Positions 2,538-18,340 of a stretch of 64,000 nucleotides of DNA are shown piece by piece. Source of the DNA: Dethiosulfovibrio peptidovorans DSM 11002 (GTDB lineage: Bacteria; Synergistota; Synergistia; Synergistales; Dethiosulfovibrionaceae); contig NZ_ABTR02000001.1 of NCBI RefSeq assembly GCF_000172975.1, forward strand, positions 493,501-557,500, in the 5' to 3' direction. A program made the translations under genes and the position numbers. The notes beneath the pieces were generated by a model. The model searched no databases, was not told where the DNA came from, and saw only the letters and a list, made by a program, of their open reading frames with translations. Positions within the stretch are counted from its first letter, which is position 1. Each line of letters begins with the position of its first letter.

Positions 2538-3805
2538 CGGGACACCTCCTGAAAACCTTGAGATTTGGCGTAGGCCATGAAGGCATCAAATACGTTCTTA
2601 CCTCCCATAGGCTTGCAGTTCATGGCCTTTGTATCCTCCAGAGAAGTCTCCACGCTATCCTTAAACTCCTCACTTCGGCCATGACTTACCCACTTCCCAG
2701 ACAAATCCAACGCCCTAAGAAAAGGAGGAGGTAATAAAAACAAGCCCGAACGCCATGAACCATCCACAAAAATGGGTCTAGTGATAATGGGGCTGGACAT
2801 TCTCTCCGCACCCGATGGTTTTATGGTTGTTGGGGAAGGATCCCTATCCGAACGAGCCCGATTTTTATCCCCATCAACGAATTGGAAAATAATAGGCAGG
2901 CCGAGATGAGCCCTCGGGAAAGACCTCCGTGCGACATTGGGGACTATCGGCTCGGAGTGTTTTGGGGTAGAGCAACCGGTAATATCTCTTATAGCATCGG
3001 CCTCCGGCCAAAAAGTACGACCTGGAACATGAAGCACCTTGCCATTATTTAATACTTTCTCATGAATAGCCCCTCTAAAACCCTGCCTGAAGGATCGATA
3101 AACCTCAACTGAATCTCTCCAAGCTGCCATGGCTCCTCCCTTAGGATTTGATATCAACACGCTAGCAAACACGCCATCAGACAAGCAATTTGAGAGATAG
3201 TCCTCTCCCAGATCAGTCCCATCGTTATGCAAAGCTCCAAGACCTCTCCTGGTACGGCTACCTATTCCACCAAAGGAAAGCCAGGCTCGCAACGCACACA
3301 AGACCTCATCTCTAACAGACACCTTTATCGGAGTAGTTTTCTTTATATCCTGATATCCATCGATATAGTCTGGAGCGGAGACGTTCAAATCGAAAGAAAG
3401 CCCTTCAGTAGCAACTTCCTGTCCGTTCTGCTTGGCGGAGAATAAGGCATACTGCTCTGGGCCAAAATTTTTAAACCGATCGACAGCCTTAGTTTCAATT
3501 GAAGTGTGTTTTGATACCGATATCCTCACCGGGCTGGCTTTTTCCGTATCCCCCCATATCTGGGACTCCCTGTGGTAAAGCTCCTGGGAGGAGCTGAACT
3601 TTCTGCCACAGGTCGCCCTCCACCAGAAACGAAGGTGCCCTCGAATCGCCGTTCCCCGAACAGGGTGTTTCCCGTCTACCTCTCCCGCTTTAACCCCTCC
3701 GCCGAACATCGGGGTTACCACCGAGATACGGTATGTCTCCTCGAACGTTCCGTCGCCAAGGTTGCTTTCAGGTTTGGCCGGAGGCTTACTTCCTATAGAG
3801 CGCAT
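2534..3805 (-). CDS. cmr1: Cmr1, type III-B CRISPR RAMP protein
   Basis: This is a 423-residue RAMP protein. The N-terminus reads ISVVTPMFGGGVKAGEVDGK, then RGTAIRGHLRFWWRAT, then QIWGDTEKASPVRISV. This is the Cmr1 pattern: TPLFxGG, RxxSIRGxLRFWWRA, and EaxIFG followed by a beta strand. Cmr1 joins the Cmr effector complex at the 3' end of the crRNA. A second glycine-rich stretch, GGIGSRTRRGLGAL near residue 190, is the G-rich loop typical of RAMPs. A GAAGGAG Shine-Dalgarno precedes the ATG at 3805. A 74-base gap separates it from the Csx20-like gene upstream, the largest gap in this unit, so a weak extra promoter is possible there. Confidence 0.9.
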   Translation of the reverse strand: MRSIGSKPPAKPESNLGDGTFEETYRISVVTPMFGGGVKAGEVDGKHPVRGTAIRGHLRFWWRATCGRKFSSSQELYHRESQIWGDTEKASPVRISVSKHTSIETKAVDRFKNFGPEQYALFSAKQNGQEVATEGLSFDLNVSAPDYIDGYQDIKKTTPIKVSVRDEVLCALRAWLSFGGIGSRTRRGLGALHNDGTDLGEDYLSNCLSDGVFASVLISNPKGGAMAAWRDSVEVYRSFRQGFRGAIHEKVLNNGKVLHVPGRTFWPEADAIRDITGCSTPKHSEPIVPNVARRSFPRAHLGLPIIFQFVDGDKNRARSDRDPSPTTIKPSGAERMSSPIITRPIFVDGSWRSGLFLLPPPFLRALDLSGKWVSHGRSEEFKDSVETSLEDTKAMNCKPMGGKNVFDAFMAYAKSQGFQEVSR

Positions 3806-3879: not shown

Positions 3880-4263
3880 CTACTTCAATTCAACGCTACA
3901 GGAAGCAGAACTCACGAAACCCTCGTGCCGAAACACCATGGTCTTCGACACCGACCCGTCGGGATTACGCCTCTCGTGGCATTCACGCTTAGAAAAGGCG
4001 TACAGAGGCACGACATCCCTATCGAGCAGAGCACGCTCCAGACAGGGCATAAGATATGGAGCCCCCCCGATCATGGCAAAACGGACTCCCCTCTTAACCG
4101 CCAGATCGGCGATGGCATTCGCACGCATTTCCAAGGTGGATCGATCGGGAACATCAGAGAAGGTCAAGAGCTTCGACACCTCATTCTGATCGTAGAGATC
4201 GACGACTCCCGCCAAGACCTGCTCCGGCGTAGCCCTATGCTGGGTCAGATTTAAAACGATCAC
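3880..4263 (-). CDS. Csx20-like small protein, possible CARF-type ring nuclease
   Basis: The product is 127 residues from a GTG at 4263, chosen because AGGAGG lies seven bases upstream and the start overlaps the phosphatase stop (GTGA). The C-terminal half (MIGGAPYLMPCLERALLDRD, then VPLYAFSKRE, then an FRHEGF ending) matches the pattern I know for Csx20: a Gly-rich loop followed by PVYATTKRE and FKHVxF. Csx20 proteins are small CARF-like proteins proposed or shown to cleave cyclic oligoadenylate. The N-terminus (VLNLTQHRATPEQ) belongs to a wider family also seen outside CRISPR loci, so a different nucleotide-binding role is possible. Its place between PP2C and cmr1 links the two modules. Confidence 0.6.
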   Translation of the reverse strand: MIVLNLTQHRATPEQVLAGVVDLYDQNEVSKLLTFSDVPDRSTLEMRANAIADLAVKRGVRFAMIGGAPYLMPCLERALLDRDVVPLYAFSKRECHERRNPDGSVSKTMVFRHEGFVSSASCSVELK

Positions 4264-5258
4264 TCGGCCGCCTCCTTTATATTCAGTACTTCCCATTTAA
4301 GCCTTTCCCTATGCCTTCTTACCGTGGACCTGGCCACCTCGAGCTTTATGGCCCTATCCTTGGTTCCCACGGATTCGCCCCGATATTCCAGGTCTCTAAG
4401 ATAATCCATATGGGTACAGTGATAGTTTTTCCTGTTCGTTCCCAAGAGTTCCGACCGCCTGGAGTCCTCTGTTCGCGCCAGCTCCGACGGAGACATGATG
4501 GAAGCTCCTAACACTGCCAGACTGCAATCGTCGCCAGTTCTCTCCCTTATCAATGTAGACAGATTGAGCTCCAACGCCGATGAAACCTGTTTCTCTCCGG
4601 CGGAGGCACACCAATCGACCATGGAGGCGCAGGCCCTGGCTGGATGAAAAGCTCCGTTTCTCTTTCTGTAAAGCGAGGCCGCCGGGCCGTCGGACATTAG
4701 AACGAATCCCTTGGTTCCCTTGTATACTTTTCCTCTGTAGAGACGCAGGCTTTTAGCCCCGTCTTTTCCCGTCAGAAAAACGGTCTGATTGGCGAACTCG
4801 CCTCCTTCAGGAACGCTGAGCATCCTTGCTCCTTTCTTGGACACCTGAACTATGGCGCCATCCCCTACGTGACAGGCCAGATATCTGTCGCCCCTCACTG
4901 CCACGGCCAGCAGGGTCGAGGCCATATCGTCCAGCGACAAACCCGCCCTATCTGCCGCCGCCTTCACCGCTCTCAAAAGGTCCTGATAAAGAGCTTCCAC
5001 CGCCTTATTCTTTTTGAATTTAGACAGTTCGTCGAAACGATCGGTCAAGGATCTTCCCGCCGCCTCCACTGCTGCCTCGGCCCCAATATGAGACAGAGGA
5101 CGGGATCCGGCCCCGTCGGCCAGTGAGGCGCATATCACCCCCTTCCGCCTGACGAGACCGGTCCTGTCCTGACAGGGCGTTCCGTTTTTGACGTGGTCTC
5201 TGCCGATAGCCCTGGCGTGAGCGCCGTTCCAGAGCTTCAGAGTGATCGAATAACCCAT
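4260..5258 (-). CDS. PP2C-family Ser/Thr phosphatase of a TerY-P triad
   Basis: I take the start at the ATG at 5258, two bases after the vWA stop; an upstream TTG at 5276 lacks a usable ribosome-binding site. PP2C metal-binding motifs occur in order: SLADGAG, ACHVGDGAI, VLMSDG and TGDDCSLAVL, which supply the Asp ligands of a metal-dependent phosphatase. About 70 further residues follow the catalytic domain, rich in Arg and Lys and ending in a helical stretch (RSTVRRHRERLKWEVLNIKE) that could bind a partner or nucleic acid. A vWA protein, PP2C and kinase with zinc ribbons together form the TerY-P triad known from Ter-linked stress systems. It probably reverses phosphorylation by the PIN-kinase. 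Confidence 0.85.
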   Translation of the reverse strand: MGYSITLKLWNGAHARAIGRDHVKNGTPCQDRTGLVRRKGVICASLADGAGSRPLSHIGAEAAVEAAGRSLTDRFDELSKFKKNKAVEALYQDLLRAVKAAADRAGLSLDDMASTLLAVAVRGDRYLACHVGDGAIVQVSKKGARMLSVPEGGEFANQTVFLTGKDGAKSLRLYRGKVYKGTKGFVLMSDGPAASLYRKRNGAFHPARACASMVDWCASAGEKQVSSALELNLSTLIRERTGDDCSLAVLGASIMSPSELARTEDSRRSELLGTNRKNYHCTHMDYLRDLEYRGESVGTKDRAIKLEVARSTVRRHRERLKWEVLNIKEAAE

Positions 5259-5260
5259 GA

Positions 5261-5938
5261 CTACAGCGATGCCCAACCCTCGAGTCCCTTGAGATCCAGT
5301 TCGACCTTCTCTCCCGGGATGGACTGAGAGACCTTGGAGACGCTGGAGCTGAGCCAGCGGAAGAATTCCTGGAAGTTGAGGTCCTTCAGCCTCAGGGGAT
5401 TTCTGGCGGGGGAGAATTCCTTCAAGGTGTCGGTACAGGCGTTATCCCCGATGGCTATGGGAAAAACGGTAAGCTTGCCCTTATCCACCAGTGCGCTGGT
5501 TTTGGCCGCGGCGAGCTGCCAATCGTCGTTAGGCTTTCCGTCGGTCATGATGACCATCCAGGGCTGATAGTAGTCCACCCCGAGAGTGCGATAGAGCTCC
5601 TTGCGCTTCTCCAGGGACTCGAGGGCGAGGGATACGGCACCTCCCATCCTGGTCTTGCCTATGGCTTTAAGCTCGGGGATATCGCACTTTTCCAGGGGAC
5701 CGAAGTCCACCTCCTGAGTTACCTCGTTGCTAAAAGAGATGACGCTAACCTCCGCCGAATAACGGGCCACATCGTCGTCCTTAAGGGACTTGAAGAAGAG
5801 CTCAACTCCACGGTTAAGCTCCTCTATAGGAGCTCCAAGCATCGATCCGCTGACGTCCAGCACCAGAGAGACCGGCACTCTGGGAGTGGGATTCTCCACC
5901 ATTTCATTCTGATCCAGTATCATGTTGAGGCTTGCCAT
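5261..5938 (-). CDS. TerY-type von Willebrand factor A domain protein
   Basis: The product is 225 residues, made almost entirely of one vWA domain. The metal-ion-dependent adhesion site is complete: DVSGSM near residues 28-33, a Thr in KTRMGGAV near 93, and MTDGKP near 130. The length and simple architecture match TerY proteins, which act as adaptor or scaffold partners of PP2C and kinase. An AGGAGG lies seven bases before the ATG. The gene starts a tightly packed unit running through PP2C, Csx20-like, cmr1, cmr2 and cmr3, and its leader carries the 23-bp element at 5978-6000. It has no signal peptide, so it is cytoplasmic. What it binds here is unknown. Confidence 0.87.
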   Translation of the reverse strand: MASLNMILDQNEMVENPTPRVPVSLVLDVSGSMLGAPIEELNRGVELFFKSLKDDDVARYSAEVSVISFSNEVTQEVDFGPLEKCDIPELKAIGKTRMGGAVSLALESLEKRKELYRTLGVDYYQPWMVIMTDGKPNDDWQLAAAKTSALVDKGKLTVFPIAIGDNACTDTLKEFSPARNPLRLKDLNFQEFFRWLSSSVSKVSQSIPGEKVELDLKGLEGWASL

Positions 5939-6003: not shown

Positions 6004-7860
6004 TCAGTGAACACAGGAGGCCTGAACGAAGGATCTGGAGACCTCTCTACAGGTCGGACAGGAGGCCGGGATATGGCCTCTCAAAACGCTGTCGGCCAGG
6101 AACTTGGGAGCCTCGTAAAGCTCTCCGCAGGAGACGCATCTAAGCGTCACGGAGGACCTGCAGTCGGGGCAATAGGTGGCCTTGCCACGACTGGTCAGAT
6201 CCTCCGCGAGAAATAGGGGCATCCCGAAGGTTTTTCCGCAATGATCACACTGAACCATGACTTCCTGGCGGCAGTCATCGCAGTAACAGTCCCTTCCCCT
6301 CTCTTTGAGACTTTCCAGGGTTGGAGAGCTTACCTTGAAAGCCTTTCCGCAGAGGGGACAGACGTGATCGACCGGGTCCACTATCTTGGGCGAGGAGGGA
6401 AAGAGCTCGTCGGAAAAGTAGCCTTCCTCCAGACCACGACGGTAATCCATGAGCATCTCGAGCCACATAAGGGCAGAGAGGCGGTCTCCCCTGTTGAATA
6501 CAGCCTCGAAGCCGTCTTTTATCGCCCTTGGAAGGTTGCTGAAGATATTGCGCCAGGGCCCGCGGGGAACGTTTTCGCTTCGTTTTTCTCCAACGGCATA
6601 GGGAAAGTTTCCGAGCCTTATGTTTTCGCCGGGATCTCCTCCACCTTGATGGGAATATGGAGGCTTGCCGGGAAGCAGGATCATGAAGATAAGGGTGGCC
6701 AGGGCGAATTCCTCATGAGCCTTGGTACGCAGGAAGAACTTGAAGTCCTTGCCCTGTATCTCAGGGGCGGTGAAATTCGCCGTTCCGACCGGGCAGGGAT
6801 AGTTCTCCAGCTGATAGCTGTCGGTGTCCACGAAGTAGGCTTTTCCCGTCCGGTCCAACATTATGTTCTGAGGATTTATGTCTCCTAAAAGGACGTTTCT
6901 ACCGTGAAGAGCACAGATCTTTTCCGTCACGTCTATGGCCAGATCGACCAGATTCCGCCTGGTCCATTCGGGAAAGTTTCTCTCGAAAAGGGGTTTGACG
7001 AAGAGGGCTTTATGAAGGGATATGCCTTCGGCCCTGTCCATGACGTATCCGACAAATCGACCGCACCCGTCCCTGAGGATGTCTCTGGGCCAGCAGATTC
7101 CGGTGGTGGAACATCCGGCATCCACCATTTTCTCCAGCTTAGGCTCCTGATAGGAGTGGAGTTTTTCCGGACGATAGATCTTGCAGACCCGACCGTCGTC
7201 GGCAAGCCAGCAGGTGCCCTCTCCTCCGCTGCCCAGGGAGGAGACCATGGTGATGTAATCGGAGCTGGTGTGCAGTACCGTTCCCTCCACGACCGGCTCG
7301 GGAAGAGCTTCCAGAGAAACGAACTCTACAGGCGAGGTCCCCATAGGAAATACGGAATCGGCAGAGGGTAGAGCAAAAGAGGGAGCTAGGGCCTCGTGGG
7401 AGACGAGCCTTTTTCCGTCGCTGGATATGCCAAAGGCGGCGATATCCCTTTTTCTATCCACCGAACCGATATCCCTGAGAGCTGTCAGATCTCGCCCGAG
7501 CTTTTTATCCTGGGTGATAAGACAGAGATCGTAATCGGTCATAAACCTGGTGAAGAGGTTTATGAAGAGTTGATCGGGGAAACGGTCTCCCGCCTCTCCC
7601 CTCAAAGAGAGCAACCCCTCTTTCTGGTAGGAACAGAGAATACGGTATCCCTCTCTGGCCAGCTTGCCCCTTCGGGTGTCCTCGTCTTTGAACTTGAGAA
7701 GTTCCTGCACCACTCCCCGAGGGACCACGACCTGAGCCCCCTCCTCCGCCAGTATCGGCGCCAAGACATCCATGAAGAAAGTCTGTGCTCTGCGATGCAT
7801 GATAGCGCAGGTGTCGACGAAGATACGTCCACTGGACGTCATGTATTTCTCCAGCTCCAC
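6004..7860 (-). CDS. PIN domain - protein kinase - triple zinc-ribbon fusion (TerY-P kinase)
   Basis: The product is 618 residues from a GTG at 7860 preceded by AGGAGG. Residues 10-155 form a PIN-like nuclease domain (VDTCAI with Asp16, VVQELL, then LITQDKKLG). Residues about 200-470 are a Ser/Thr kinase: glycine loop SLGSGGEGTCW, VCKIY lysine, catalytic loop HGRNVLLGDINPQN with Asp327, VDTD replacing DFG, and TAPE. Residues about 500-610 hold three CxxC...CxxC zinc ribbons (CPLCGKAF, CDHCGKTF, CVSCGELY, each with a later CxxC). Kinase plus zinc ribbons is the TerY-P arrangement; the N-terminal PIN nuclease is an addition. It is a single-gene unit between a terminator and the vWA unit, with its own 23-bp element. 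Targets are unknown; neighbours are obvious candidates. Confidence 0.87.
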   Translation of the reverse strand: MELEKYMTSSGRIFVDTCAIMHRRAQTFFMDVLAPILAEEGAQVVVPRGVVQELLKFKDEDTRRGKLAREGYRILCSYQKEGLLSLRGEAGDRFPDQLFINLFTRFMTDYDLCLITQDKKLGRDLTALRDIGSVDRKRDIAAFGISSDGKRLVSHEALAPSFALPSADSVFPMGTSPVEFVSLEALPEPVVEGTVLHTSSDYITMVSSLGSGGEGTCWLADDGRVCKIYRPEKLHSYQEPKLEKMVDAGCSTTGICWPRDILRDGCGRFVGYVMDRAEGISLHKALFVKPLFERNFPEWTRRNLVDLAIDVTEKICALHGRNVLLGDINPQNIMLDRTGKAYFVDTDSYQLENYPCPVGTANFTAPEIQGKDFKFFLRTKAHEEFALATLIFMILLPGKPPYSHQGGGDPGENIRLGNFPYAVGEKRSENVPRGPWRNIFSNLPRAIKDGFEAVFNRGDRLSALMWLEMLMDYRRGLEEGYFSDELFPSSPKIVDPVDHVCPLCGKAFKVSSPTLESLKERGRDCYCDDCRQEVMVQCDHCGKTFGMPLFLAEDLTSRGKATYCPDCRSSVTLRCVSCGELYEAPKFLADSVLRGHIPASCPTCREVSRSFVQASCVH

Positions 7861-8011: not shown

Positions 8012-9412
8012 CTACAGACAGTGCCTCAGACACAGCATATCAGAACCTTCTTTGATGGCTTTCTGGACGGCTCTGCGCACGATAAACCTCAATTCCCTGA
8101 AGTTACCGGGGTATTCCTTTTCGACCAGGTACTTTATGGCATCCAAGGATATCTTGGGAACTCGCTCGTCCGGATTTACATCTTCGTCCTGCAAGATCAG
8201 GCTAAGCAACAGTTTACGGTCTCCCTGTCTTTCTCTTATAGGGGGGACCTCCACCACATGGTCGAAACGGTGAAGAAGGTCGGCTCTAAACCCATCGTCT
8301 CCAGAGGAGACCCATTCTTTAAGGGGGCGATTCGTTGCCGCCACCAATATCACCGGTACAGGTATGGGCCTGTGATAGCCCACCGGTGTGATCGTTCCAC
8401 CGTCCATGTAGGTTAGGAGCCTGGTCTGGTGATCCGACCTCATGTCGCCAATTTCGTCCAGAAAGACGACCTTGCCTACATTGGAAGGAAAAAATCCTAA
8501 GAGATCCTCTCCCTTTTTCATGCCGGAGTAAGCCCCTTCCACCGCCCCGAAGAGCATGGTGTCCACTAGATCGGAGGGAACGGCGGAGATGTTCATCGAT
8601 GCAAATCCATCGTCCTGTCCGGGGAACAGGGCTTCGGCAATCCATCGAGCCAACAGACTTTTACCGGTGCCGGTCTCTCCCAAAAGAAGGATCGAGGGTA
8701 CGCGAGGAAAGTCAGAGCCTTTTTCACTAAGGTAATTGGCTACAATCTCTATTTTTTGACCGTCTCTCTTGACGAACTTTTTTACCTCCTCTCTGTAAAT
8801 ACGGAGGCTGCAAAGGGCTCTCTCGTCCGTGACGGATCTCAGACCGGACTTAAGGTCGTCCATCAGTTCCTGGGTGGAGGGATCGGCACATAGGCTGAAA
8901 AAGCTAGGACCGGATCCCTTAGCTATCTTCGCCTTCCAGGCTACGCTTTTATAGAGGACCTCCTCTCCTGATTTTTTCCGTAATTCCGCCCTAAAAAGGG
9001 ACGTAAGAGTGGATTGAAGCCTGGCCAACTCGTCCAGGTCCCTGTCCTGTTGGTCGGTGAGCCCCAGGTGGCTTTGACGAAAAATACCTACCACGGAGGA
9101 ATATATGTCACCGTGGAGCTTCTCTACAGAACCGTCCCAGGAGGAGTCCTTCAAGACGACGATCACCGACAGTGTCTTTTCTCTCTTGCCTTTCAGGCCA
9201 TCCAGAAGTTCGGCGGGGAAACCCATTGCTACGGTGGCCTTTTTCGGATCGTCCACGATCTCGAAATCGACCTCTTTCATCTCTTCTCGACGGGAAACGC
9301 TCAGCAAACATCTTTCTTTCCACTCTGCCACCAGAGTCTCCAGCCCTCTTTTTACCGCCTCATCTCCGCACAAAAAGACCTTGAAAAGAGATGCGCTCCT
9401 AATTCTCGCCAT
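8012..9412 (-). CDS. Sigma-54-activator-like AAA+ ATPase lacking a DNA-binding domain
   Basis: The product is 466 residues. The AAA+ domain has Walker A GETGTGKS at 245-252, Walker B FLDEIGD with Asp319-Glu320, and a sensor II region (EYPGNFRELRFIVRRAV) of the bacterial enhancer-binding protein type. The sigma-54 contact loop GAFTGA is replaced by GAYSGM at 293-298, and the protein ends soon after the AAA+ lid with no Fis-type helix-turn-helix. The first 200 residues (VFLCGDEAVKRGLETL onward) are unrecognised and may sense a ligand or partner. It is the last gene of the operon with the fused polymerase and overlaps the 326-residue gene by 14 bases. A polymerase remodeller is the natural guess; direct sigma-54 activation is less likely. 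RtcR-type regulators are the nearest relatives I can name. Confidence 0.82.
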   Translation of the reverse strand: MARIRSASLFKVFLCGDEAVKRGLETLVAEWKERCLLSVSRREEMKEVDFEIVDDPKKATVAMGFPAELLDGLKGKREKTLSVIVVLKDSSWDGSVEKLHGDIYSSVVGIFRQSHLGLTDQQDRDLDELARLQSTLTSLFRAELRKKSGEEVLYKSVAWKAKIAKGSGPSFFSLCADPSTQELMDDLKSGLRSVTDERALCSLRIYREEVKKFVKRDGQKIEIVANYLSEKGSDFPRVPSILLLGETGTGKSLLARWIAEALFPGQDDGFASMNISAVPSDLVDTMLFGAVEGAYSGMKKGEDLLGFFPSNVGKVVFLDEIGDMRSDHQTRLLTYMDGGTITPVGYHRPIPVPVILVAATNRPLKEWVSSGDDGFRADLLHRFDHVVEVPPIRERQGDRKLLLSLILQDEDVNPDERVPKISLDAIKYLVEKEYPGNFRELRFIVRRAVQKAIKEGSDMLCLRHCL

Positions 9413-10379
9413 TTAGCTCTCTCCTCAGACGTTTTTTCCAGGAATCGAAGATCTTGCACCTAAAGTTCTTCAGCTGGTCTTGAGACCTTCCGTAGCCGAA
9501 AGGGGCAAAGGGGTTGCCTTCATCCTCGATAAGCTTTGAGTTCAACTTCGCGTGGCTCCATCCTTTTTTAACGAAAGTCACCAGGTCGTTTTTGATCATA
9601 GTTTGATACTGTTCGTGCAGCATCCATCCATCGACCGCACCGTCAGGCGTTTTCGTCCACGAGACCGATTGATCCAAAAAAGATCTCTCGTTCGCTCCGT
9701 TTTCTTCGCACCATTTGGGAAGCCATTTCCTGCGAAACCAAAGCCAGTCGGCCACTTCCGGTAAGCCTCCGCCTCGGTAAGATCCGAAAAAGGAAGCTAC
9801 CGTCATTAGACACCTAGTTGATCCGGGAACGAGAATCGTCATTCTATTCCAAGACGGTATAGCGTTGGTTCCCAGCCAGGTCGGGGCGAATATCCCAGAT
9901 GCGTTCCAAGGGGCAGGTTGTCTTTCTTCGCTCTCCATCCACGGAAAATATCTCCTGTAGTTCTCGGTAGACCACTCTATTAGAAGACGAAGGCTCTCGC
10001 CCAGCCCCTCCTTGTACGGATCTCCTCCCCTTCCTGCATGACACCAGACTAGCTTTTCTCCCGTCCAGATCCAGACCGGACGACAATAGGCGTCCAGTTT
10101 ATTCGAGAGATAGAAGGGGTCTATTTCCTCTTCACAAAAATCTGTAACTTCGTCGTCAGACCGATCGTTCAGATCTACGTCGACATCCTGAAGCTCTTCC
10201 TGGTCTCGTTCTTCCCATAACTGCTCTATTAAATCCGACATGTCGTCATCAAGACAGGCAGCCAACTCGGATTTATTGAGGTACTGCCAGGCGCTGGCTC
10301 TGTTTTCCGCATTTACGGCAAGCTCTGTTTTCTGAGAGGTTTTAGTCCTCTGCCTGCTCTGTAACCTCATAGCGCCCAT
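9399..10379 (-). CDS. Unrecognised 326-residue protein, possible partner of the fused RNA polymerase
   Basis: I do not recognise this family. It starts 1 base after the polymerase stop, with GGGAGG eight bases upstream, and overlaps the AAA+ gene by 14 bases, so it should be made with both. The N-terminal 15 residues are basic. Residues 40-90 are strongly acidic (DDDMSDLIEQLWEERDQEE, DVDVDLNDRSDDE). The rest is Trp-rich (WIWTGEKLVWCHAGRGGDPY, WLWFRRKWLPKWCEEN) and ends basic (WKKRLRRELNGEN). No membrane segment or signal peptide is seen. Its position would suit an assembly, specificity or regulatory subunit for the neighbouring polymerase, but nothing in the sequence proves that. No sigma region 2/4 signature could be read by eye. 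Confidence 0.75.
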   Translation of the reverse strand: MGAMRLQSRQRTKTSQKTELAVNAENRASAWQYLNKSELAACLDDDMSDLIEQLWEERDQEELQDVDVDLNDRSDDEVTDFCEEEIDPFYLSNKLDAYCRPVWIWTGEKLVWCHAGRGGDPYKEGLGESLRLLIEWSTENYRRYFPWMESEERQPAPWNASGIFAPTWLGTNAIPSWNRMTILVPGSTRCLMTVASFFGSYRGGGLPEVADWLWFRRKWLPKWCEENGANERSFLDQSVSWTKTPDGAVDGWMLHEQYQTMIKNDLVTFVKKGWSHAKLNSKLIEDEGNPFAPFGYGRSQDQLKNFRCKIFDSWKKRLRRELNGEN

Positions 10380-10380
10380 T

Positions 10381-13300
10381 TCAAGAACCTCCCTTCGCCC
10401 AATCTTGATCCAGCATCACCTGGGCCTTCAGTCCCGACATGGATTCGCTTCCACCTTTTAGTAGGATGTCGTCGATCCTCTCGTAGGCCATAGCCGCAAG
10501 GGCTCTATTCTCACGGTCCGAGGCCCATGAGGATAGTCCTTTCGGAGCTCTCAAGGCCAGTTCGAAGAGGACGAGACGCTGAGGAAGCTCCTTGAAACGG
10601 TTGGATCTCTCTCCGTCTTCCGAGCCTGGGTCGGTCAGGACCTTGTCCAGTAGGTCTCTGTATCGTTCGGACAGGTCTCTTATAAAGCCTTCCTTTTCCT
10701 CTTGGAACAGGTTCACGTCGGACTCGACCTTTTTTACCTCGTCGGACAATAACCTTTTGCCTGTGATCAGCAACCGTCTCAAATAGCCTATAGGGTCGCC
10801 CTCCACGCCCGATCCGACGTCGTGGAATCTCTTCATGGCTAGCTGGGTTCCTCTTTCGCCTATGCCCATGGCGGCGTTTAGGCCAACCGGCATACCCACC
10901 GGCACAGCTTCATCGCCGACTCTGCCGATATCGGCACCGACGCACCGGGAGCACACTCCTCTTTCCGACTGAGCACAGGTGATGGGGCTGGCACAGGAGG
11001 CTATGAGGACCGGACCTTGACCTATGTTTATCGTTTTAGAGACATCCTTTAGCCTATCCAGGTCTTCAGCAGTGATCGGTTTATCGAAATCCACAAGATC
11101 GATACGTTCTTCCGCTTTTTGGCCGATCCTGTAACACCAGCGACCGAGCAGGACCGACTCTAGGGCACTACCTACGTCATCCCCGGGGAATATCTCCGGA
11201 GATTCCCAGAGACAGCCTCCTTTAGGCTTCAGATGATGGCCCTCGGGAAAAGTGTAGTTTATCGAAAGCCTACGTTTCTCTTCGCCAACGGCCTGAACGT
11301 ATATCTCCATTCGACCCTCCGAACCGCAGTCCTCCGATTCGGTCAAGGTATCGTACAGTCCTTCCGCCAGCAGCCGGGAGAGGTATCCTGCCTGAGCAGT
11401 GGCGAGTTTTTTGTCCCCCATAGAGTCTCTGGAGGCGTAGCTGTAGACGAAGAGTTCGTCGTCGGACAGGCCGGTCCAGAAACAGCCAGGAATCCAGCTT
11501 TCGTGGAGAGGTTTGTAGAGGATCGGATCAGGCTTTTTCGGGCTAGGCTTTTTCTTACCTTTAGCCGCCATATCTTCTTCGTCAATAGCTGGCGCAAGTT
11601 TCTCTGATGTCCTTGAGTAGATATCCTGAAGGCCGATAAAGCCGCACATATGACGAAGATCCGAGGGCTTCCCTTTGGCTTTGCTCAGGACCATTCTACC
11701 TAGGTGAGAGTTTGAGTGGCTTTCAAGCCATCTCGAGATCACCCCTTCAGCGGCTTTTTCGCACTTTTGATATTTTGCCTTAAGCTCTCCAAGCTCCTGT
11801 TGGGTTATCTCTTGCGGGGTGTAGTCCTCGGTCTCCTCCAGACTACGGGCCTCTTTCCTGTTTTCCTCTAGTTCAACAAACAGGGCATCCAGCTCGTCTG
11901 GAGGAAAGCTGCAACACCCCGTCGAGGCGGCACAGATATCTCGTTGTAGCTTCCCAAGATGGATCCACCAGTCTGGATCGTCCTTCACCATGGCGTTTAC
12001 CAGGTCACCTAAGGCTGTTGCGTAGTCCTTCGATTTATCCTCCACGTCCTCGACAGGATAGCAGTAGCCCAGGTATTCTTTCTTTGTCTCCCTGTCCAGA
12101 GCGCTCCATCCCAGAGCCAAATCCAGACCGGAGGCTATCATAAGCTTGCCGTCTCCGATGCGGCCGGGAGTGGCCTTCAACGTAAAATCGCTAAGGTCCT
12201 TTATCCAGGGATATTGGGGCAGATACACCGCCATGGTGTCGCCGTCAAAGTCGGCGTTAAAACCCTCTGTGACCATTGAGGGAATGGCCATGGCCTGTTC
12301 CTCCCATACGGTCCACTTGAAGGCCTGAACGGAGTGGCGGTGCAGGCTCGGCTGACGGATCAGGATACACCACAGGGGGCCACTGGCTTCCAATGCGGTG
12401 TTGATCATCTCCGCGGCCTCTTTAACCCTGACTGCGTCTCCACTGTGGGCTTTTTTACGAAGATCCTTTAATTTTCCCTCCAGGCCAAGTATATCCAGGC
12501 CGTTGTGGCCCTTCAGGAGTTCCACCGCCATCTGGACCGGCAGCCGGACCTCGTCCAGAGCCAGCTCCGGACGGCTTACTATGACCGCCCTTCCACTGTG
12601 GTCGGTCCTGTGGCCCAGAACGTGCCTCCGGAGGATTCCTCTCTTGCCTTTGACGCAGTTGGAGAGGGTCTGCCAGTATTTTTCGAGAGTGCTCAATATC
12701 GAATAAGCCCTCTCGAGGGAAACCGACTTGCTCCCCGTCACCTTGCCGAACTCGGCCATAAGGGCTCTGTAGCAGTTCGCCAGGGCTTCCTGCCCTATCA
12801 GGGTATCGCGATCAAACGGTATACCCCAGCCACCGTCAAGTCCCTTAACTGTACATAGGGACAAAGCCATGGGAGAACAGGGCATCTTAGGCCGAGATCT
12901 CTCCTCCTCATTTTTTATGACGACATTATTTGCTGCAGGGAGTTCATTAAGGACACCGAGTATAGGATGGATCGAGTCTCCATCGAGCGAGGCCAGAGCC
13001 TTCTGCATCTTATCGAGGGCGCTATTTCGCCAGTCGACAGTCATCCTACCGACGATATCCTCGTTACTGAGACAGAGAGCTACGATTTCCGAGACGGCCG
13101 ATTCTTTTTCTGAGTTCTCTCTGTCCATGAAGGTTACGACCCCTCGAGAAAGACCGGAGTTATCCACATCTCCGGAGTTCAGAAGGGATTGGGCAATCCT
13201 ACCGGATAAGGAAGGTTCACGGTCCTTTCCGGACAGTGGTCTCTCCCATACTACCCCGTGTTCCTTTTTCTTCGATTTAAGCCCTGCAAGCCACAGAAGC

Positions 13301-15459
13301 TTTTCCAGGGCATCCATGGTGAGTGCCTGGCCGTCTTTCTGTCTTTCTCCCGAGGCCCTAAGGCTGGACAGGAGGTCCAGGGCGTGGCTGTCCAAACCGT
13401 TTTCGGAACATAGTGGGCCTCTGCTGAGGATGGCCCAGTTCTCCATCTCTCCGAGCCTCTGTCCAGCTTTGGCTCCGCCGGAGGTTGGCTGGCCGATGAA
13501 ACGGTTGGAGGGGCCGTCGGTCCCCCGGGCCTGGAGCTTTTTGTCCACGTGATGGACTAGCCGGGAGATGTACTGATAACCGCAGAAGGCCCGGACCTCT
13601 TTCTCCTGGGCTCCTTCCCTATACCGGACGGGGAAGCCGCTGCCTTTGTCGGTCTCGTCACTCAGGCCAAGCTTTTTGAGGATCGTCAGGACCGTGTTTC
13701 GCCATTCTTCTCCACGGTAGAGACCGTCGCGTTTTACCTCGTCGTCTATGAGGCCCCATTCCCGGGCCTTCAAGGCCAGGCCGTGGCCCATCTCCAGTAT
13801 CTGGCCCAGGTTTTTACGGCCTACTATGGAGCAGGGGGAAATGATCAAATCCACCGTCTCCACACGTTCCGTACCGTCGGGGCCTTTCAGGACGACCTTA
13901 GGCATGGCATCGTCTTCCTCTATTTTTGTGACGACTCCTTTGTTGCCGTTCCTTCCGGTGATTTTATCCCCAATCCTGAGGGGCCTGACGATGTCGAACT
14001 CGTAGACAATCTCGACCTTGGTCGGTATCGAATCCTTTCGTTTTCTATCAATGACTGATTTTACCGACACATTGACCAGTGTCCCAGGCATAAACCACGG
14101 ATAGGAGTGGCTCTTTTCACCAGCTAAATATCCGGGCAAGGGCAGCGGCTTGTCGAAGATATAGGTTTTCTTCTTTTTTCCAGCCAGATCACGGACCTGC
14201 TCCTCAATTTTCTCGATTAGTTCTGAAAATTCCTTAACCCCGGCCTTGGGAAGCATCTCGTTCTTCAGCTCGTAGATCTTTCCGGTTGGCTGTTTTTTGG
14301 GCTTCATCTTCAGCTTTTCAGCGAAAGATCGAGAGACCACCAGACCGTCCTCGTAGGTAAGTCCCTTCCAGGGCATAACAGCCACCAGGGCATTGACTCC
14401 AAGATAGGGCTTAAACCGCCCCGCCTCGTCCAGATGCCCCTCAAGGGCCTCTATTTTTTTACCTCTGGCTCCCTCTATGTACCCAGGGACCAAAGAGGGC
14501 TCGCCACCCTCTATATTCTGTTCCGCCTGTTTGAGGTTTTTGCCTCCCATCATGAGCCTAGGCCCGTCGCTGTGATGGGGATAAGGAACCATACCGACGG
14601 CCACGGAGAAAAGGCTTTGTTCCTCGCCATCTTCAGCCAGCTCGACCCCCTTGCCGCCGTCACCCTGATGGGCCGTGGCGGTCATGAAAAGCTGAAGACC
14701 TATCTTCTCCGACTCGGGAGTGTGGAATGGGCACAGTCGATTTTTATGGCTTTTGTGGGGAAGCCTGACCCTGCCGTTGGTCTTGACCTTGGAGGCCATG
14801 GTGACCTGTCTCTCCAGCTCCAGGCAGCGAAGGGAGTTGCTGTCGTCCAGAGGCAAGGCCTTCACCAGTCCCGACCGGACCGATCGGGAGGTCCAGAAGC
14901 TGTTTAGGTTGGACTCCAGCTTACACAGGATAACGAGCATATCCTTCTTCAGTTTATCTTCAGGTACCTTCTTCTTCGATTCCGACAGCTTTTTGAGAGC
15001 TCTTTCGGCACGTTTTATCGAGTACTCCAGGTTAGACCACCAGGGGGAGTAGATCTCAAGTTTTTCCAGGTCGGGGACATCCTTGTTCGTTAAAGACGTC
15101 AGATACGTATCGTTCCGCGTTTCTTCGTCAAAGTTCTCTCCCTTTTTTTTCTTTACTTGAGTCCTCTTGCGACCTACCATAGCCAGGCTCCACTGGGATC
15201 TATCGTCGTCCAACGCAGCGACCTTAGATCCGATCGGCAGTATCATCGTTACCGTACGTTCGATATCTATGCCGTGAGCCGAAGCTTTTATCGATATGGG
15301 AGCCATGACGGCACCGCCGTTCAGCTCCTCTAAAACCTGAAAGTCGTTAACCTCTAAAAAGGGAGACAAAACGTCGGAGCGGCACCTCTCCACGACGGTC
15401 TTCAGCCTTTCGACTATCTTATCTATTTTAATTTTATCTTTATCGGGATCGACCTTCAT
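10381..15459 (-). CDS. Compact single-chain RNA polymerase: fused beta and beta-prime catalytic cores
   Basis: The product is 1692 residues. The beta half shows CPFHTPES at 243-250, the MMGGKNLKQA segment, NALVAVMPWKGLTYEDGLVVS, GDKITGRNGNKG at 497-508, and VHHVDKKLQARGTDGP before QPTSGGAKAGQRLGEMENWA. The beta-prime half shows LRRHVLGHRTDHSGRAVIVS, the active-site NADFDGD at 1068-1074 (all three Asp kept), a bridge-helix segment ending AQAGYLSRLLAEGL, four Cys fitting the second zinc site, and the trigger loop GIGERGTQLAMKRFH at 1532-1546 with its His. Active site to trigger loop is 464 residues, close to the Escherichia coli spacing. Large parts are missing, including the beta lobes and the beta-prime N-terminal zinc region; housekeeping beta plus beta-prime total about 2700. 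The start has AGGAGG eight bases upstream and overlaps CYTH by four bases. Its context excludes a housekeeping role. Confidence 0.95.
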   Translation of the reverse strand: MKVDPDKDKIKIDKIVERLKTVVERCRSDVLSPFLEVNDFQVLEELNGGAVMAPISIKASAHGIDIERTVTMILPIGSKVAALDDDRSQWSLAMVGRKRTQVKKKKGENFDEETRNDTYLTSLTNKDVPDLEKLEIYSPWWSNLEYSIKRAERALKKLSESKKKVPEDKLKKDMLVILCKLESNLNSFWTSRSVRSGLVKALPLDDSNSLRCLELERQVTMASKVKTNGRVRLPHKSHKNRLCPFHTPESEKIGLQLFMTATAHQGDGGKGVELAEDGEEQSLFSVAVGMVPYPHHSDGPRLMMGGKNLKQAEQNIEGGEPSLVPGYIEGARGKKIEALEGHLDEAGRFKPYLGVNALVAVMPWKGLTYEDGLVVSRSFAEKLKMKPKKQPTGKIYELKNEMLPKAGVKEFSELIEKIEEQVRDLAGKKKKTYIFDKPLPLPGYLAGEKSHSYPWFMPGTLVNVSVKSVIDRKRKDSIPTKVEIVYEFDIVRPLRIGDKITGRNGNKGVVTKIEEDDAMPKVVLKGPDGTERVETVDLIISPCSIVGRKNLGQILEMGHGLALKAREWGLIDDEVKRDGLYRGEEWRNTVLTILKKLGLSDETDKGSGFPVRYREGAQEKEVRAFCGYQYISRLVHHVDKKLQARGTDGPSNRFIGQPTSGGAKAGQRLGEMENWAILSRGPLCSENGLDSHALDLLSSLRASGERQKDGQALTMDALEKLLWLAGLKSKKKEHGVVWERPLSGKDREPSLSGRIAQSLLNSGDVDNSGLSRGVVTFMDRENSEKESAVSEIVALCLSNEDIVGRMTVDWRNSALDKMQKALASLDGDSIHPILGVLNELPAANNVVIKNEEERSRPKMPCSPMALSLCTVKGLDGGWGIPFDRDTLIGQEALANCYRALMAEFGKVTGSKSVSLERAYSILSTLEKYWQTLSNCVKGKRGILRRHVLGHRTDHSGRAVIVSRPELALDEVRLPVQMAVELLKGHNGLDILGLEGKLKDLRKKAHSGDAVRVKEAAEMINTALEASGPLWCILIRQPSLHRHSVQAFKWTVWEEQAMAIPSMVTEGFNADFDGDTMAVYLPQYPWIKDLSDFTLKATPGRIGDGKLMIASGLDLALGWSALDRETKKEYLGYCYPVEDVEDKSKDYATALGDLVNAMVKDDPDWWIHLGKLQRDICAASTGCCSFPPDELDALFVELEENRKEARSLEETEDYTPQEITQQELGELKAKYQKCEKAAEGVISRWLESHSNSHLGRMVLSKAKGKPSDLRHMCGFIGLQDIYSRTSEKLAPAIDEEDMAAKGKKKPSPKKPDPILYKPLHESWIPGCFWTGLSDDELFVYSYASRDSMGDKKLATAQAGYLSRLLAEGLYDTLTESEDCGSEGRMEIYVQAVGEEKRRLSINYTFPEGHHLKPKGGCLWESPEIFPGDDVGSALESVLLGRWCYRIGQKAEERIDLVDFDKPITAEDLDRLKDVSKTINIGQGPVLIASCASPITCAQSERGVCSRCVGADIGRVGDEAVPVGMPVGLNAAMGIGERGTQLAMKRFHDVGSGVEGDPIGYLRRLLITGKRLLSDEVKKVESDVNLFQEEKEGFIRDLSERYRDLLDKVLTDPGSEDGERSNRFKELPQRLVLFELALRAPKGLSSWASDRENRALAAMAYERIDDILLKGGSESMSGLKAQVMLDQDWAKGGS
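11023..11045 (-). promoter_or_regulatory. Degenerate copy of the 23-bp element inside the polymerase gene
   Basis: On the minus strand it matches the 23-bp element at 20 of 23 positions: ATGTCTCTAAAA, then CG in place of AA, then ATAAACATA. It lies in frame in the polymerase gene (codons for DVSKTINI), same orientation as the other copies. It is not followed by a hairpin. It could be an internal promoter or chance. Confidence 0.35.
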
Positions 15460-15914
15460 CCATCGTTCCTCCTCTTAGGGAATCCGTCTTTAGCCAGTTT
15501 TTTGTTTTTCCATCGGGGATCCCATGTAATTTCTTCTACAAGATCTAGCCACCCAGGCAAAGGAGGAACCGGGGAAGATTCGTTCGGCAACTCCACCTCC
15601 GCCACGGCCAATCCTGGGAGGTCGGGATAGATATCCACCTCCCATGAACCGGCCAGATAGCGGGTCTTTTCGATCCTCCAAGGGGCGAAGCATCCTACAA
15701 GACGAAAAAGCCAAGAGGGAATAGGGCTCTCCCACTCCCCTCTGACCATCCCGCCTCCGGTCTTGACAGTGAAGAAGCAACTTTCCACGACAGACCTGAG
15801 TCTGACCTCCAGGGATTTAGACGCCAGAAGATACCTTTGATCTATCCTGCGACGATCGCCCCTCGGGGTTCCGACGACCTTACAGAGATATTTCCTCTCG
15901 ATCTCGGTTCCCAT
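15456..15914 (-). CDS. CYTH-domain triphosphate tunnel protein
   Basis: The product is 152 residues, one whole CYTH domain. The signature EIERK near residues 4-8 fits ExExK, and RYLL, VRLR, FTVK, EKTRYL, WEVDIY and AVAEVEL supply the alternating charged strands of the tunnel. A DPRW motif follows. CYTH enzymes hydrolyse inorganic, thiamine or RNA 5' triphosphates, or make cAMP, using divalent metal. The gene sits between the CARF-HD gene and the fused polymerase, overlapping the latter by four bases. A role on triphosphorylated nucleotides or RNA ends made by that polymerase is plausible but unproven. The six-base gap to the upstream stop argues for co-transcription. Confidence 0.87.
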   Translation of the reverse strand: MGTEIERKYLCKVVGTPRGDRRRIDQRYLLASKSLEVRLRSVVESCFFTVKTGGGMVRGEWESPIPSWLFRLVGCFAPWRIEKTRYLAGSWEVDIYPDLPGLAVAEVELPNESSPVPPLPGWLDLVEEITWDPRWKNKKLAKDGFPKRRNDG

Positions 15915-15919
15915 CTCGG

Positions 15920-18340
15920 CTAGCTTTCATTCTCCAAGACATCAGGATCGGTATCGACGGTGATGCCACCTAAATAGTCACGAGGACTCTTAATCCCATC
16001 AATCGTGCCCCTCGCTCTATGGACCTCCTCGACGATATCCTTAGCGATGGATCTAAGCTCTTCTTTAGAGTGACCATTTTTCCCCGATAGAAGGGATATC
16101 TTTACTCCACCGTCGTTGCCGGCCCCATCTTTTTTAGCAGGCACGGGAAGGACCACCTCCACCGAACGGTGTTTGTAGAAGTGCAGAAACTGCTCCCACT
16201 TGAAGGCTATTCTGTTTGCCAATGACAGGGCCTGAATCACCTTGACGTTGTCCGGTTCGAAAAGGCTGTTAAAGCTCTTCTCTCCCTTGACGCTCCTCAG
16301 GATCTTGAATATTGACGGATAGAGGGAGGAACCGATTCTCTTTATCTTATTCGTATCGATATCGTCCATAGTGCCGTCTTTAGCAGCTTCGGGAGTAAGC
16401 TTTCCAGCCTCCGAGCAGATCTCCTCCAGGCATCTACGTATAGACATAGGGGTTCCGTCCGCGTCCACGACGTACTCTTTCAACACGTCTTCGAACATGG
16501 GTAACTGAGCCTCCAGCGTCTTGGCCTCGTAGGCCGTCCTCTGAAGACGCTGGATCAGATGATCGTCGCCGACCACCCTATCGGACTGGACGTCGCAACC
16601 GTCTATCACCCTGAGAAGTGCCGTGACGGTGAGAGTCATGTCGGGGGTCATCGTTTCGCCTGTCTCGTTGAAAAAGGGTCCATAGTTTTTCTCGAGTTTT
16701 TTGTCCAGAGGGAGAAGGGTTTTCTCAAAACGATCCTCTCCCATGAGGAACTTTCCTACCTGCCAGACCGCTTTTTTCTCCTTGAACTCCACATTTTCGT
16801 TCAATCGGACGTAGTTTCTGTGACCGGCGCAGACCTCGGGAAGAAGCTTTCTTAAGATCTTTATTTGGGACTCCAGTTTTTTCCAATCTAAGTTATCGCT
16901 GTCACCAAGCACGGAATAAGCCTTGGGAAAAAGCAGCCCTCTGGTCGAAGCTTCGCTTTCGTCGATATTTTCCGTCCTGTAGCGAATCATCTCGGCAGAA
17001 AGCAGGTGATGGACCTCCCGAACGGCAGAGGGGAACAAGGACAGAGGGAATGCCCCGGCGTCCTTGGCCTTATCGGGGTCGATGGGATAGACCAGCGCAG
17101 TGTGGCCGATGTCGTGAAGGTATATAGCAGAGATAAGAAGAGCCAGAGGAATGGCTTTATCCATATAAATGTGGGATACGCCATCGGTACCCTGGTCCAG
17201 AGCGCGAAGGAAGTTTCCTGCTATCTCCATGAGACGCTTGGAATGCCGCCTGGAGTGCTCCACCGTCTCGGGAATCTGATCCCCCATCCAGAGCTCGGAC
17301 CAACTGGTCTGGATAAGCCTCTCCAGATAGGTTCCCAGATCCGAGTCTATTGCTTTCAGACGGGTTAAAAGTTCCTTGCCCGATCCAGTGACCTGATTGC
17401 GCCCCTTTTCGTACTGTTCTATGAGGCTATCGACCAGGGAAGAGGGCTGCCCGTCAACGAAAAGCCCGCTCACCCATCGAGGAAGGGTTTTGTTATCGAG
17501 GATCCCCTTCCTGTTTTCTGGATTTTCAAGATCCCTTAGTCCCTTCAAGAGGGATATCTCCTCGTCCATGGCCCCTATGGCACAGGAGATGGGAAGGGGC
17601 ATAAGATCTAACGTTTTGGCCCCGTTTTCTTCAAAAACATAAATAGAAGGGAATCCGTTTATCAGGCCATAAAGATTGACATAAGAAGAAATAGCTTTAT
17701 AGCCACCCGTTCCATTACAAATAAGCTGAACATGATCAGTGATATTCTTATTTTTGATATTATCAAATTCCGAAAAAAGGCTATCTACTGCCCTTGCAAG
17801 GCTATCAGCGTCCTTAACCACTATATCCAAAGCCTCAACAAACCCATCAAATACAAAATGCTTCCACGGACCATGCTCAGAGATAAATTTAACAATATAG
17901 CTAGATAAATAAGCATTAAAAATACTATACTCATCTCTAGAAGGGAAAAAATGCATTTCCAAGGAAATTTCTTCCTCATTACCGTAGTAAGAAAAAAGCC
18001 ATCCCAAGGTACTTTGAATTTCGGCACTAGGGAAGCTATTGCCTAGCAAACTCTCTAGATTAAAATCTTTAAAAAAGATAGCACTAGCAGTAGACTTAGA
18101 CCCTCTTGTTTTATCTGGAAGATAAGATTGGTCAGAAAACAAAGAGACAACCTCTTCAAGGGTTTCCTTTGAAAAATCAAGACGTTCCAACTTATCTTGA
18201 GTCCTTTTTATTTTTTTAACTCTCTCTTTTCGAATTTCCTTATCATAACGCTCGACTTTCAAGTCTTTTTTAAGGCTTCCATTTACAGAAGTCCCCACCG
18301 TACAGAGCATCACTATTTTACGAACTTTATCCGAGCTCAT
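15920..18340 (-). CDS. CARF - HD fusion protein, probable cyclic-oligoadenylate-controlled effector
   Basis: The product is 806 residues. The N-terminal domain has the CARF features of the Csm6/Csx1 group: a first strand ending CTVGTSV (residues 13-19) and NGTGGYKAISS from residue 209, followed by NGFPSIYVFEE. An HD phosphohydrolase domain follows, with His362 (EHSRRH), His409-Asp410 (HDIGH) and a later ALLRVIDGCD segment. CARF domains bind cyclic oligoadenylate made by Cas10, so the GGDD-active Cas10 downstream is the likely partner. The HD domain missing from Cas10 is thus present here in a separate protein. The CARF-coding DNA is much more AT-rich than the rest: 22% GC at 17881-17940 against 57% at 17281-17340. 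It heads the polymerase operon. Its substrate is unknown. Confidence 0.85.
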   Translation of the reverse strand: MSSDKVRKIVMLCTVGTSVNGSLKKDLKVERYDKEIRKERVKKIKRTQDKLERLDFSKETLEEVVSLFSDQSYLPDKTRGSKSTASAIFFKDFNLESLLGNSFPSAEIQSTLGWLFSYYGNEEEISLEMHFFPSRDEYSIFNAYLSSYIVKFISEHGPWKHFVFDGFVEALDIVVKDADSLARAVDSLFSEFDNIKNKNITDHVQLICNGTGGYKAISSYVNLYGLINGFPSIYVFEENGAKTLDLMPLPISCAIGAMDEEISLLKGLRDLENPENRKGILDNKTLPRWVSGLFVDGQPSSLVDSLIEQYEKGRNQVTGSGKELLTRLKAIDSDLGTYLERLIQTSWSELWMGDQIPETVEHSRRHSKRLMEIAGNFLRALDQGTDGVSHIYMDKAIPLALLISAIYLHDIGHTALVYPIDPDKAKDAGAFPLSLFPSAVREVHHLLSAEMIRYRTENIDESEASTRGLLFPKAYSVLGDSDNLDWKKLESQIKILRKLLPEVCAGHRNYVRLNENVEFKEKKAVWQVGKFLMGEDRFEKTLLPLDKKLEKNYGPFFNETGETMTPDMTLTVTALLRVIDGCDVQSDRVVGDDHLIQRLQRTAYEAKTLEAQLPMFEDVLKEYVVDADGTPMSIRRCLEEICSEAGKLTPEAAKDGTMDDIDTNKIKRIGSSLYPSIFKILRSVKGEKSFNSLFEPDNVKVIQALSLANRIAFKWEQFLHFYKHRSVEVVLPVPAKKDGAGNDGGVKISLLSGKNGHSKEELRSIAKDIVEEVHRARGTIDGIKSPRDYLGGITVDTDPDVLENES

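Follow-up and report, generated by a model that had tools for sequence, protein, structure and literature searches.

Comparison of a 64,000-nucleotide stretch of the Dethiosulfovibrio peptidovorans DSM 11002 genome (the window) with related genomes leads us to propose that type III CRISPR immunity in certain Synergistota has a dedicated sigma54-style transcription machine attached to it, operating as set out below, a reading to which we assign a probability of roughly 55%. The machine would combine a single-chain RNA polymerase, a small partner protein and an AAA+ ATPase with a sensor of the CRISPR messenger (Table 1). In favour of this proposal are an intact polymerase active site, purifying selection, a nearly fixed set of partner genes, linkage to type III loci and an activator that is kept in genomes without RpoN. 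Its control by a messenger, the sigma54-like role of the partner protein, the choice of DNA transcribed and its independence from the alpha and sigma subunits of the host are elements that we infer.

Table 1 Genes of the module and its surroundings, in window coordinates.
Feature	Coordinates	Strand	Evidence and remarks
Single-chain beta-beta' RNA polymerase core	10381-15459	minus	1692 aa; Pfam, NCBIfam and motif matches
Conserved partner, putative initiation factor	9399-10379	minus	326 aa; family of 15 (alignment A1), fold matches
bEBP-type AAA+ ATPase	8012-9412	minus	466 aa; Sigma54_activat 1.1e-32
CARF7-HD protein	15920-18340	minus	806 aa; first module gene; PADLOC CARF7--CARF_HD E=0
CYTH-like protein	15456-15914	minus	152 aa; EIERKYL signature seen
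PIN-kinase-zinc ribbon protein	6004-7860	minus	between module and cmr genes; Pfam; not conserved core
TerY-like vWA protein	5261-5938	minus	Pfam; not conserved core
PP2C phosphatase	4260-5276	minus	Pfam; not conserved core
Cmr1 of adjoining type III-B system	2534-3805	minus	PADLOC 1.4e-31
Cas10/Cmr2	804-2537	minus	PADLOC Cas10 1.2e-85; GGDD present, HD nuclease motif absent

The polymerase is encoded by a single open frame with an ATG start and no internal stop. In Pfam, the first half of the chain matches domains 3 and 6 of Rpb2 (Rpb2_3, 7e-7; Rpb2_6, 1.4e-24) and the second half domains 2 and 5 of Rpb1 (Rpb1_2, 1.4e-20; Rpb1_5, 9.9e-15), with a match to Rpb1 domain 4 below cut-off. The top NCBIfam model is the Helicobacter-type fused beta/beta' (5.6e-59, 199 bits against a cut-off of 5372), followed among the top models by rpoC, also far under its cut-off, and the best-matching PDB chains are bacterial beta' subunits. 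The motifs LCPFHTPES, MPWKGLTYEDG, GDKITGRNGNKG and GQRLGEMENW are present together with RQPSLHRH, NADFDGD, a bridge helix, a Cys-rich zinc site and the trigger loop GERGTQLAMKRFHD, all of them invariant or nearly so across 11 full-length members (alignment A2), most of which are 36-38% identical to the window protein and the closest of which (G111) is 78% identical. The protein thereby displays the hallmarks of the double-psi beta-barrel enzymes, i.e. the Mg-binding NADFDGD, the beta lysine blocks, bridge helix, trigger loop and a secondary zinc site. The original prediction of all catalytic landmarks of a multisubunit RNA polymerase in one chain is hence borne out by Pfam and motif alignment, and we predict an active, DNA-templated RNA polymerase core with intact catalytic residues. 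Aligned globally to its enterobacterial equivalent, the chain lacks most of beta SI1/lobe, beta SI2 and beta' SI3, and its coverage of the beta' N-terminal zinc/clamp region is poor.

The source assembly (2.58 Mb, 100% complete) contains its own rpoB (1272 aa) and rpoC (1660 aa), adjacent at C1:2023.5-2032.3 kb, so that the polymerase of the window is a second enzyme, as had been anticipated; housekeeping rpoB is likewise found in 16 of 16 polymerase carriers. In a tree (1231 columns; CRISPR-linked, cellular and viral enzymes; IQ-TREE and FastTree) the CRISPR-linked polymerases group as one clade (support 100), set apart by a branch that measures 1.9 substitutions per site. They fall outside the cellular enzymes, which have a clade of their own (support 100). 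The supposed loss of about a thousand residues relative to the housekeeping pair is therefore correct as to size, at 1692 against 1272+1660 aa, but not as to history, since the tree indicates a separate deep clade rather than a trimmed copy of host rpoBC. IQ-TREE places the CRISPR-linked polymerases as sister to fused viral enzymes with a support of 76, a grouping not recovered by FastTree. The motif states RQP[ST]LHR (RAPTLHR in cellular enzymes) and TPES (cellular TPEG) are shared by the CRISPR-linked enzymes with viral ones, and phage ancestry is plausible.

Scanning viral contigs with profile A2 retrieved compact viral polymerases, many of them beta'/beta pairs and some fusions of ~2300 aa. 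Among the IMG/VR contigs (L083-L122), the beta' gene (~900-980 aa) often precedes the beta gene (~1010-1075 aa), and many of the encoded enzymes carry RQP[ST]LHR. The product gp206 of Salmonella phage Arash (L134:3090-7667), annotated as 'beta', is a 1525-aa chain in which the match to the family profile crosses from beta into beta'. The viral polymerase loci yielded no match to the module AAA+ or to the ~300-aa partner, and the viral contigs searched for the AAA+ gave nearly exclusively matches to the AAA+ core, as ordinary activators would. Carriage of the polymerase as plasmid or phage cargo was also considered and rejected, as the plasmid and phage collections returned only ordinary-type rpoBC or distant phage enzymes.

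Relatives of the polymerase occur in 16 of the 188 Synergistota genomes searched, and a 17th genome (G020) has a C-terminal fragment at a contig end. These counts apply to this phylum; a wider scan of genome contigs, made with peptides of a single protein, returned three Synergistota, and the family may also occur elsewhere. The full-length relatives are all single-chain proteins (1356-1709 aa), and with dN/dS values of 0.12-0.29, i.e. synonymous change far above amino-acid change, the polymerase is under purifying selection. The similarity of the polymerases in two carriers from different families (G124 and G034) suggests that the gene has moved within the phylum.

Across four families of Synergistota, the polymerase lies in a conserved row of genes for a CARF-HD protein, the polymerase, a partner of ~280-360 aa and the AAA+ protein, in this order. 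The CARF7-HD gene opens every complete locus, and the protein is predicted to sense cyclic oligoadenylate and to carry an intact HD phosphohydrolase domain. The residues of its HD motif (H362..H366, H409-D410, H413, H444, H507 and D580/D583) are invariant or nearly so in 13 relatives. A shorter, 460-aa CARF-HD relative, which matches the HD half of the profile only, is encoded ~30 kb from the module and outside the window (L065:9861-11243; C1 ~473.4-474.7 kb). The CYTH-like gene is inserted between CARF-HD and polymerase in two complete loci only, those of the window genome (G000) and G111, and its product has no Pfam or PADLOC match. All neighbours named in the original prediction (CARF-HD, CYTH-like, AAA+, kinase and Cmr genes) are present as described according to Pfam and PADLOC, the CYTH assignment by motif only. 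The inclusion of the TerY and kinase genes in the system did not hold, however: the TerY, PIN-kinase and PP2C genes adjoin the polymerase in the source genome only and are absent at the other loci, which sets them outside the core. The PIN-kinase protein is an unusual fusion for a Cmr locus, joining a PIN-like domain, a degenerate kinase and zinc ribbons in one chain, and a 138-aa open reading frame (3880-4296, minus strand) between the Cmr1 and PP2C genes overlaps the end of the latter by 37 bases.

In the window, the module is followed by a type III-B system, the Cas10/Cmr2 of which, with an intact GGDD cyclase motif and without the HD nuclease motif, appears to be of the signalling type. 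Just outside lie Cas6, a CARF-DUF2103 protein, type I-B cas genes, Cas1 and a CRISPR array of ~35 repeats. Elsewhere, the module leads into a CARF-RelE gene followed by cmr1 (G021-G024) or is divergent from cmr (G061, G064 and G067), and its neighbour in the congener G111 is a III-D system that includes reverse transcriptase and Cas1. The reverse transcriptase next to Cas1 in that locus (L036:9661-10653) has relatives in G061, G064 and G124. Of seven linked Cmr2 proteins checked, all have GGDD, and six lack the N-terminal HD pair. A strong Cas10 match was found in 14 of 17 carriers (G020 included) as compared to 24 of 171 other genomes (Fisher p=9e-9, an optimistic value since related genomes were counted singly). 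The three carriers without a strong match are G047, G057 and G038, and the G047 contig breaks off exactly at the position of cmr1 in the close relative G061. Outside the source genome, the anticipated linkage to type III genes was recovered at III-B and III-D loci, and, judged by the neighbouring effector genes and the CARF sensor, we classify the row as a putative type III CRISPR ancillary module.

The AAA+ protein is of the sigma54-activator type. Its Walker motifs are kept, and its L1 loop is GAFTGA-like (GAYSGM in the window protein; G[AS][YF][TS][GSD] in the family). All ten members compared end shortly past the AAA+ lid, i.e. without a C-terminal HTH, and a family search with the N-terminal, sensor-like domain of ~150 aa gave no match. 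Locus-type AAA+ proteins (326-693 bits) are found in 15 of the 16 carriers and in G020 and G018, the next scores being those of ordinary activators at 161 bits when lower-scoring second pieces of the same genes are left aside; none was seen in the carrier G057. In G018 the gene (G018:C34:23305-24075, 326 bits) lies on a contig that also carries two Cas10 matches, and no polymerase or ~300-aa partner was detected in the 20 kb analysed there; the gene may be a remnant, or the activator may have a use of its own in this genome. The gene rpoN is present in the window's own genome and absent from nine of the 16 carriers. Eight of the nine have no strong Sigma54_activat protein besides the locus AAA+, which scores 89-129 bits (other AAA+ proteins ~25-41 bits), and such a protein is missing altogether from four relatives that lack the polymerase. 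As the ATPase is kept where rpoN is absent, its target there must be something other than RpoN, most simply the ~300-aa partner that always travels with it.

This partner consists of a variable N-terminus, an acidic stretch and a C-terminal domain. Throughout the phylum, its family is found only with the polymerase and in G020, which has the polymerase fragment; one further match, in G122, is marginal (E=4e-4). The C-terminal domain was well predicted for one member (pLDDT 81, pTM 0.81), and models from two different members both have sigma54 as their top fold match, with Z scores that are low in absolute terms: 4.1 for the first model (8rec_M), and 4.9 (8rec_M) and 4.8 (8ree_M) over 143-150 residues for the second, for which the next unrelated chain scores 2.5. 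Foldseek against the PDB also ranks sigma54 first for the second model, with a non-significant E=4.7. The match covers residues 269-471 of sigma54, which is the DNA-binding half. By sequence, the partner was not identified as an RpoN family member: hhalign (E 0.92) and Pfam gave no match to Sigma54 domains. Neither the sequence profile against the PDB nor a search of the viral fold library returned a match. We regard the partner as a protein that may work like sigma54, and not as a proven RpoN family member. Partner, ATPase and polymerase together resemble an initiation set of the sigma54 style. A search of 37 upstream regions for a common promoter motif, whether -24/-12 or of another kind, gave none.

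Several known systems come close to the module. As in sigma54 (RpoN) systems with bacterial enhancer-binding proteins such as RtcR and NtrC, there is an activator-type AAA+ protein with a GAFTGA-like loop, and it adjoins a factor whose modelled fold most resembles the C-terminal half of sigma54. In contrast to RpoN, which uses the polymerase of the host, the module brings its own core; furthermore, its factor has no detectable sequence similarity to RpoN, its ATPase lacks the HTH and the carrier genomes may lack rpoN. The top PADLOC match of the ATPase is RtcR_PspF2 (E=6.5e-51), a likeness to the RtcR-type CARF-AAA-HTH regulators that is confined to the AAA+ part, as the HTH is missing and the N-terminal domain is not recognised as CARF. 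The nearest known idea for coupling type III CRISPR to a transcriptional output is CalpL-CalpT-CalpS, in which a SAVED-Lon protease releases a sigma factor for the host polymerase (PMC11229360), whereas the present module supplies the whole core enzyme; PADLOC detected no match to the SAVED-Lon protease or the anti-sigma factor among the ten operon proteins. Like the jumbo-phage polymerases (PMC7824862) and those of the viral contigs above, the enzyme is a non-housekeeping double-barrel polymerase, many of which are compact, but PhiKZ-type enzymes are split into several chains, and many of the contig enzymes are beta'/beta pairs or, when fused, ~2300 aa long. The fusions of Helicobacter and Wolbachia share the order of beta then beta' in one chain and are, unlike the module enzyme, full-length housekeeping polymerases (NCBIfam models of 2839-2890 positions). 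That no described type III system has such a component agrees with the open-access literature searched, in which we found no type III system with its own RNA polymerase, including the main survey of type III effectors (PMC11229360), where RNA polymerase is not mentioned; CARF-classification and accessory-gene surveys lie partly outside this coverage, and a prior mention is possible there.

We propose that the module operates using the following mechanism. Recognition of invader RNA would cause Cas10 to make cyclic oligoadenylate, which the CARF-HD protein may sense or clear, thereby linking the set to the Cas10 signal; activation by this messenger is deduced from the CARF domain and the GGDD motif. 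The 326-aa partner would serve as a private, sigma54-like initiation factor, holding the polymerase closed at its own promoter until it is remodelled by the AAA+ protein through ATP hydrolysis. The single-chain polymerase, as the catalytic core, would then start at that promoter, and defence genes, or the invader DNA, would on infection be transcribed without recourse to the host polymerase. The latter is often inhibited or redirected by phages, and our first guess for the template is defence genes during such a shut-off. Alternatively, the activities of the CARF and HD domains might be devoted to a separate effector. In its fullest version, a private apparatus with a core of non-cellular ancestry, its own sigma54-like factor and its own ATPase would be switched by the messenger and active when a phage disables the host polymerase, representing also a new lineage of AAA+-dependent initiation factors beyond RpoN; this more extensive reading is tentative, and we consider its chances somewhat below even.

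Other functions have to be weighed against this mechanism. The machine may serve CRISPR expression, transcribing the array and cas genes, or invader DNA into target RNA, rather than wider defence genes. In most loci the module lies within or next to the cmr/cas cluster, which, like the array just outside the window, is compatible with such a role, but no shared motif is found 5' of the cas genes in module loci, and we regard it as unlikely, if worth keeping in mind. The polymerase could also be the effector itself, stalling growth by promoter-free RNA synthesis or by draining nucleotides like other growth-arresting type III effectors. This would be in line with how type III ancillary proteins usually operate and with the Cas10 of the window, which as a cyclase without the nuclease motif must leave defence to effectors. 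Near-invariable partners and an ATPase of the sigma54-activator type point instead to regulated initiation at chosen sites, and a role as effector is thus rather improbable.

It is less probable still that the type III genes are mere neighbours in defence islands and that the module answers another signal. The combination with both III-B and III-D does imply that the module is not part of one effector complex, and three carriers lack a strong Cas10 match; nevertheless, the first position of CARF7-HD in every complete locus and the Cas10 association both argue for a type III signal. A domesticated phage polymerase, kept as a decoy or sensor for phage anti-polymerase proteins, would account for the viral motif states and the weak sister grouping with fused viral enzymes, but the catalytic residues are all kept, the private ATPase is conserved and the grouping is not backed by the FastTree topology, and we give this possibility little credence. 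That the polymerase is the housekeeping enzyme or a recent copy, in favour of which only homology can be cited, is ruled out for practical purposes by the separate rpoB and rpoC and by the long branch outside the cellular clade.

In conclusion, we favour a dedicated, ATPase-controlled transcription machine of type III CRISPR immunity, on the mechanism of which the putative initiation set of polymerase, partner and AAA+ protein says more than the polymerase alone. The outputs known for type III systems are destruction, by nucleases, proteases or membrane damage, or a nudging of host transcription. If the proposed reading is true, a defence system equipped with a core RNA polymerase of its own would be an immune output of a new class, and with it a new way of meeting the phage shut-off of host transcription. 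The set comprises four genes, and D. peptidovorans and its congener G111 provide a closely matched natural pair, with 78% identical polymerases next to different types of type III system. The set could moreover yield a minimal, ATPase-controlled single-chain polymerase, useful for understanding the origin of sigma54-type initiation.
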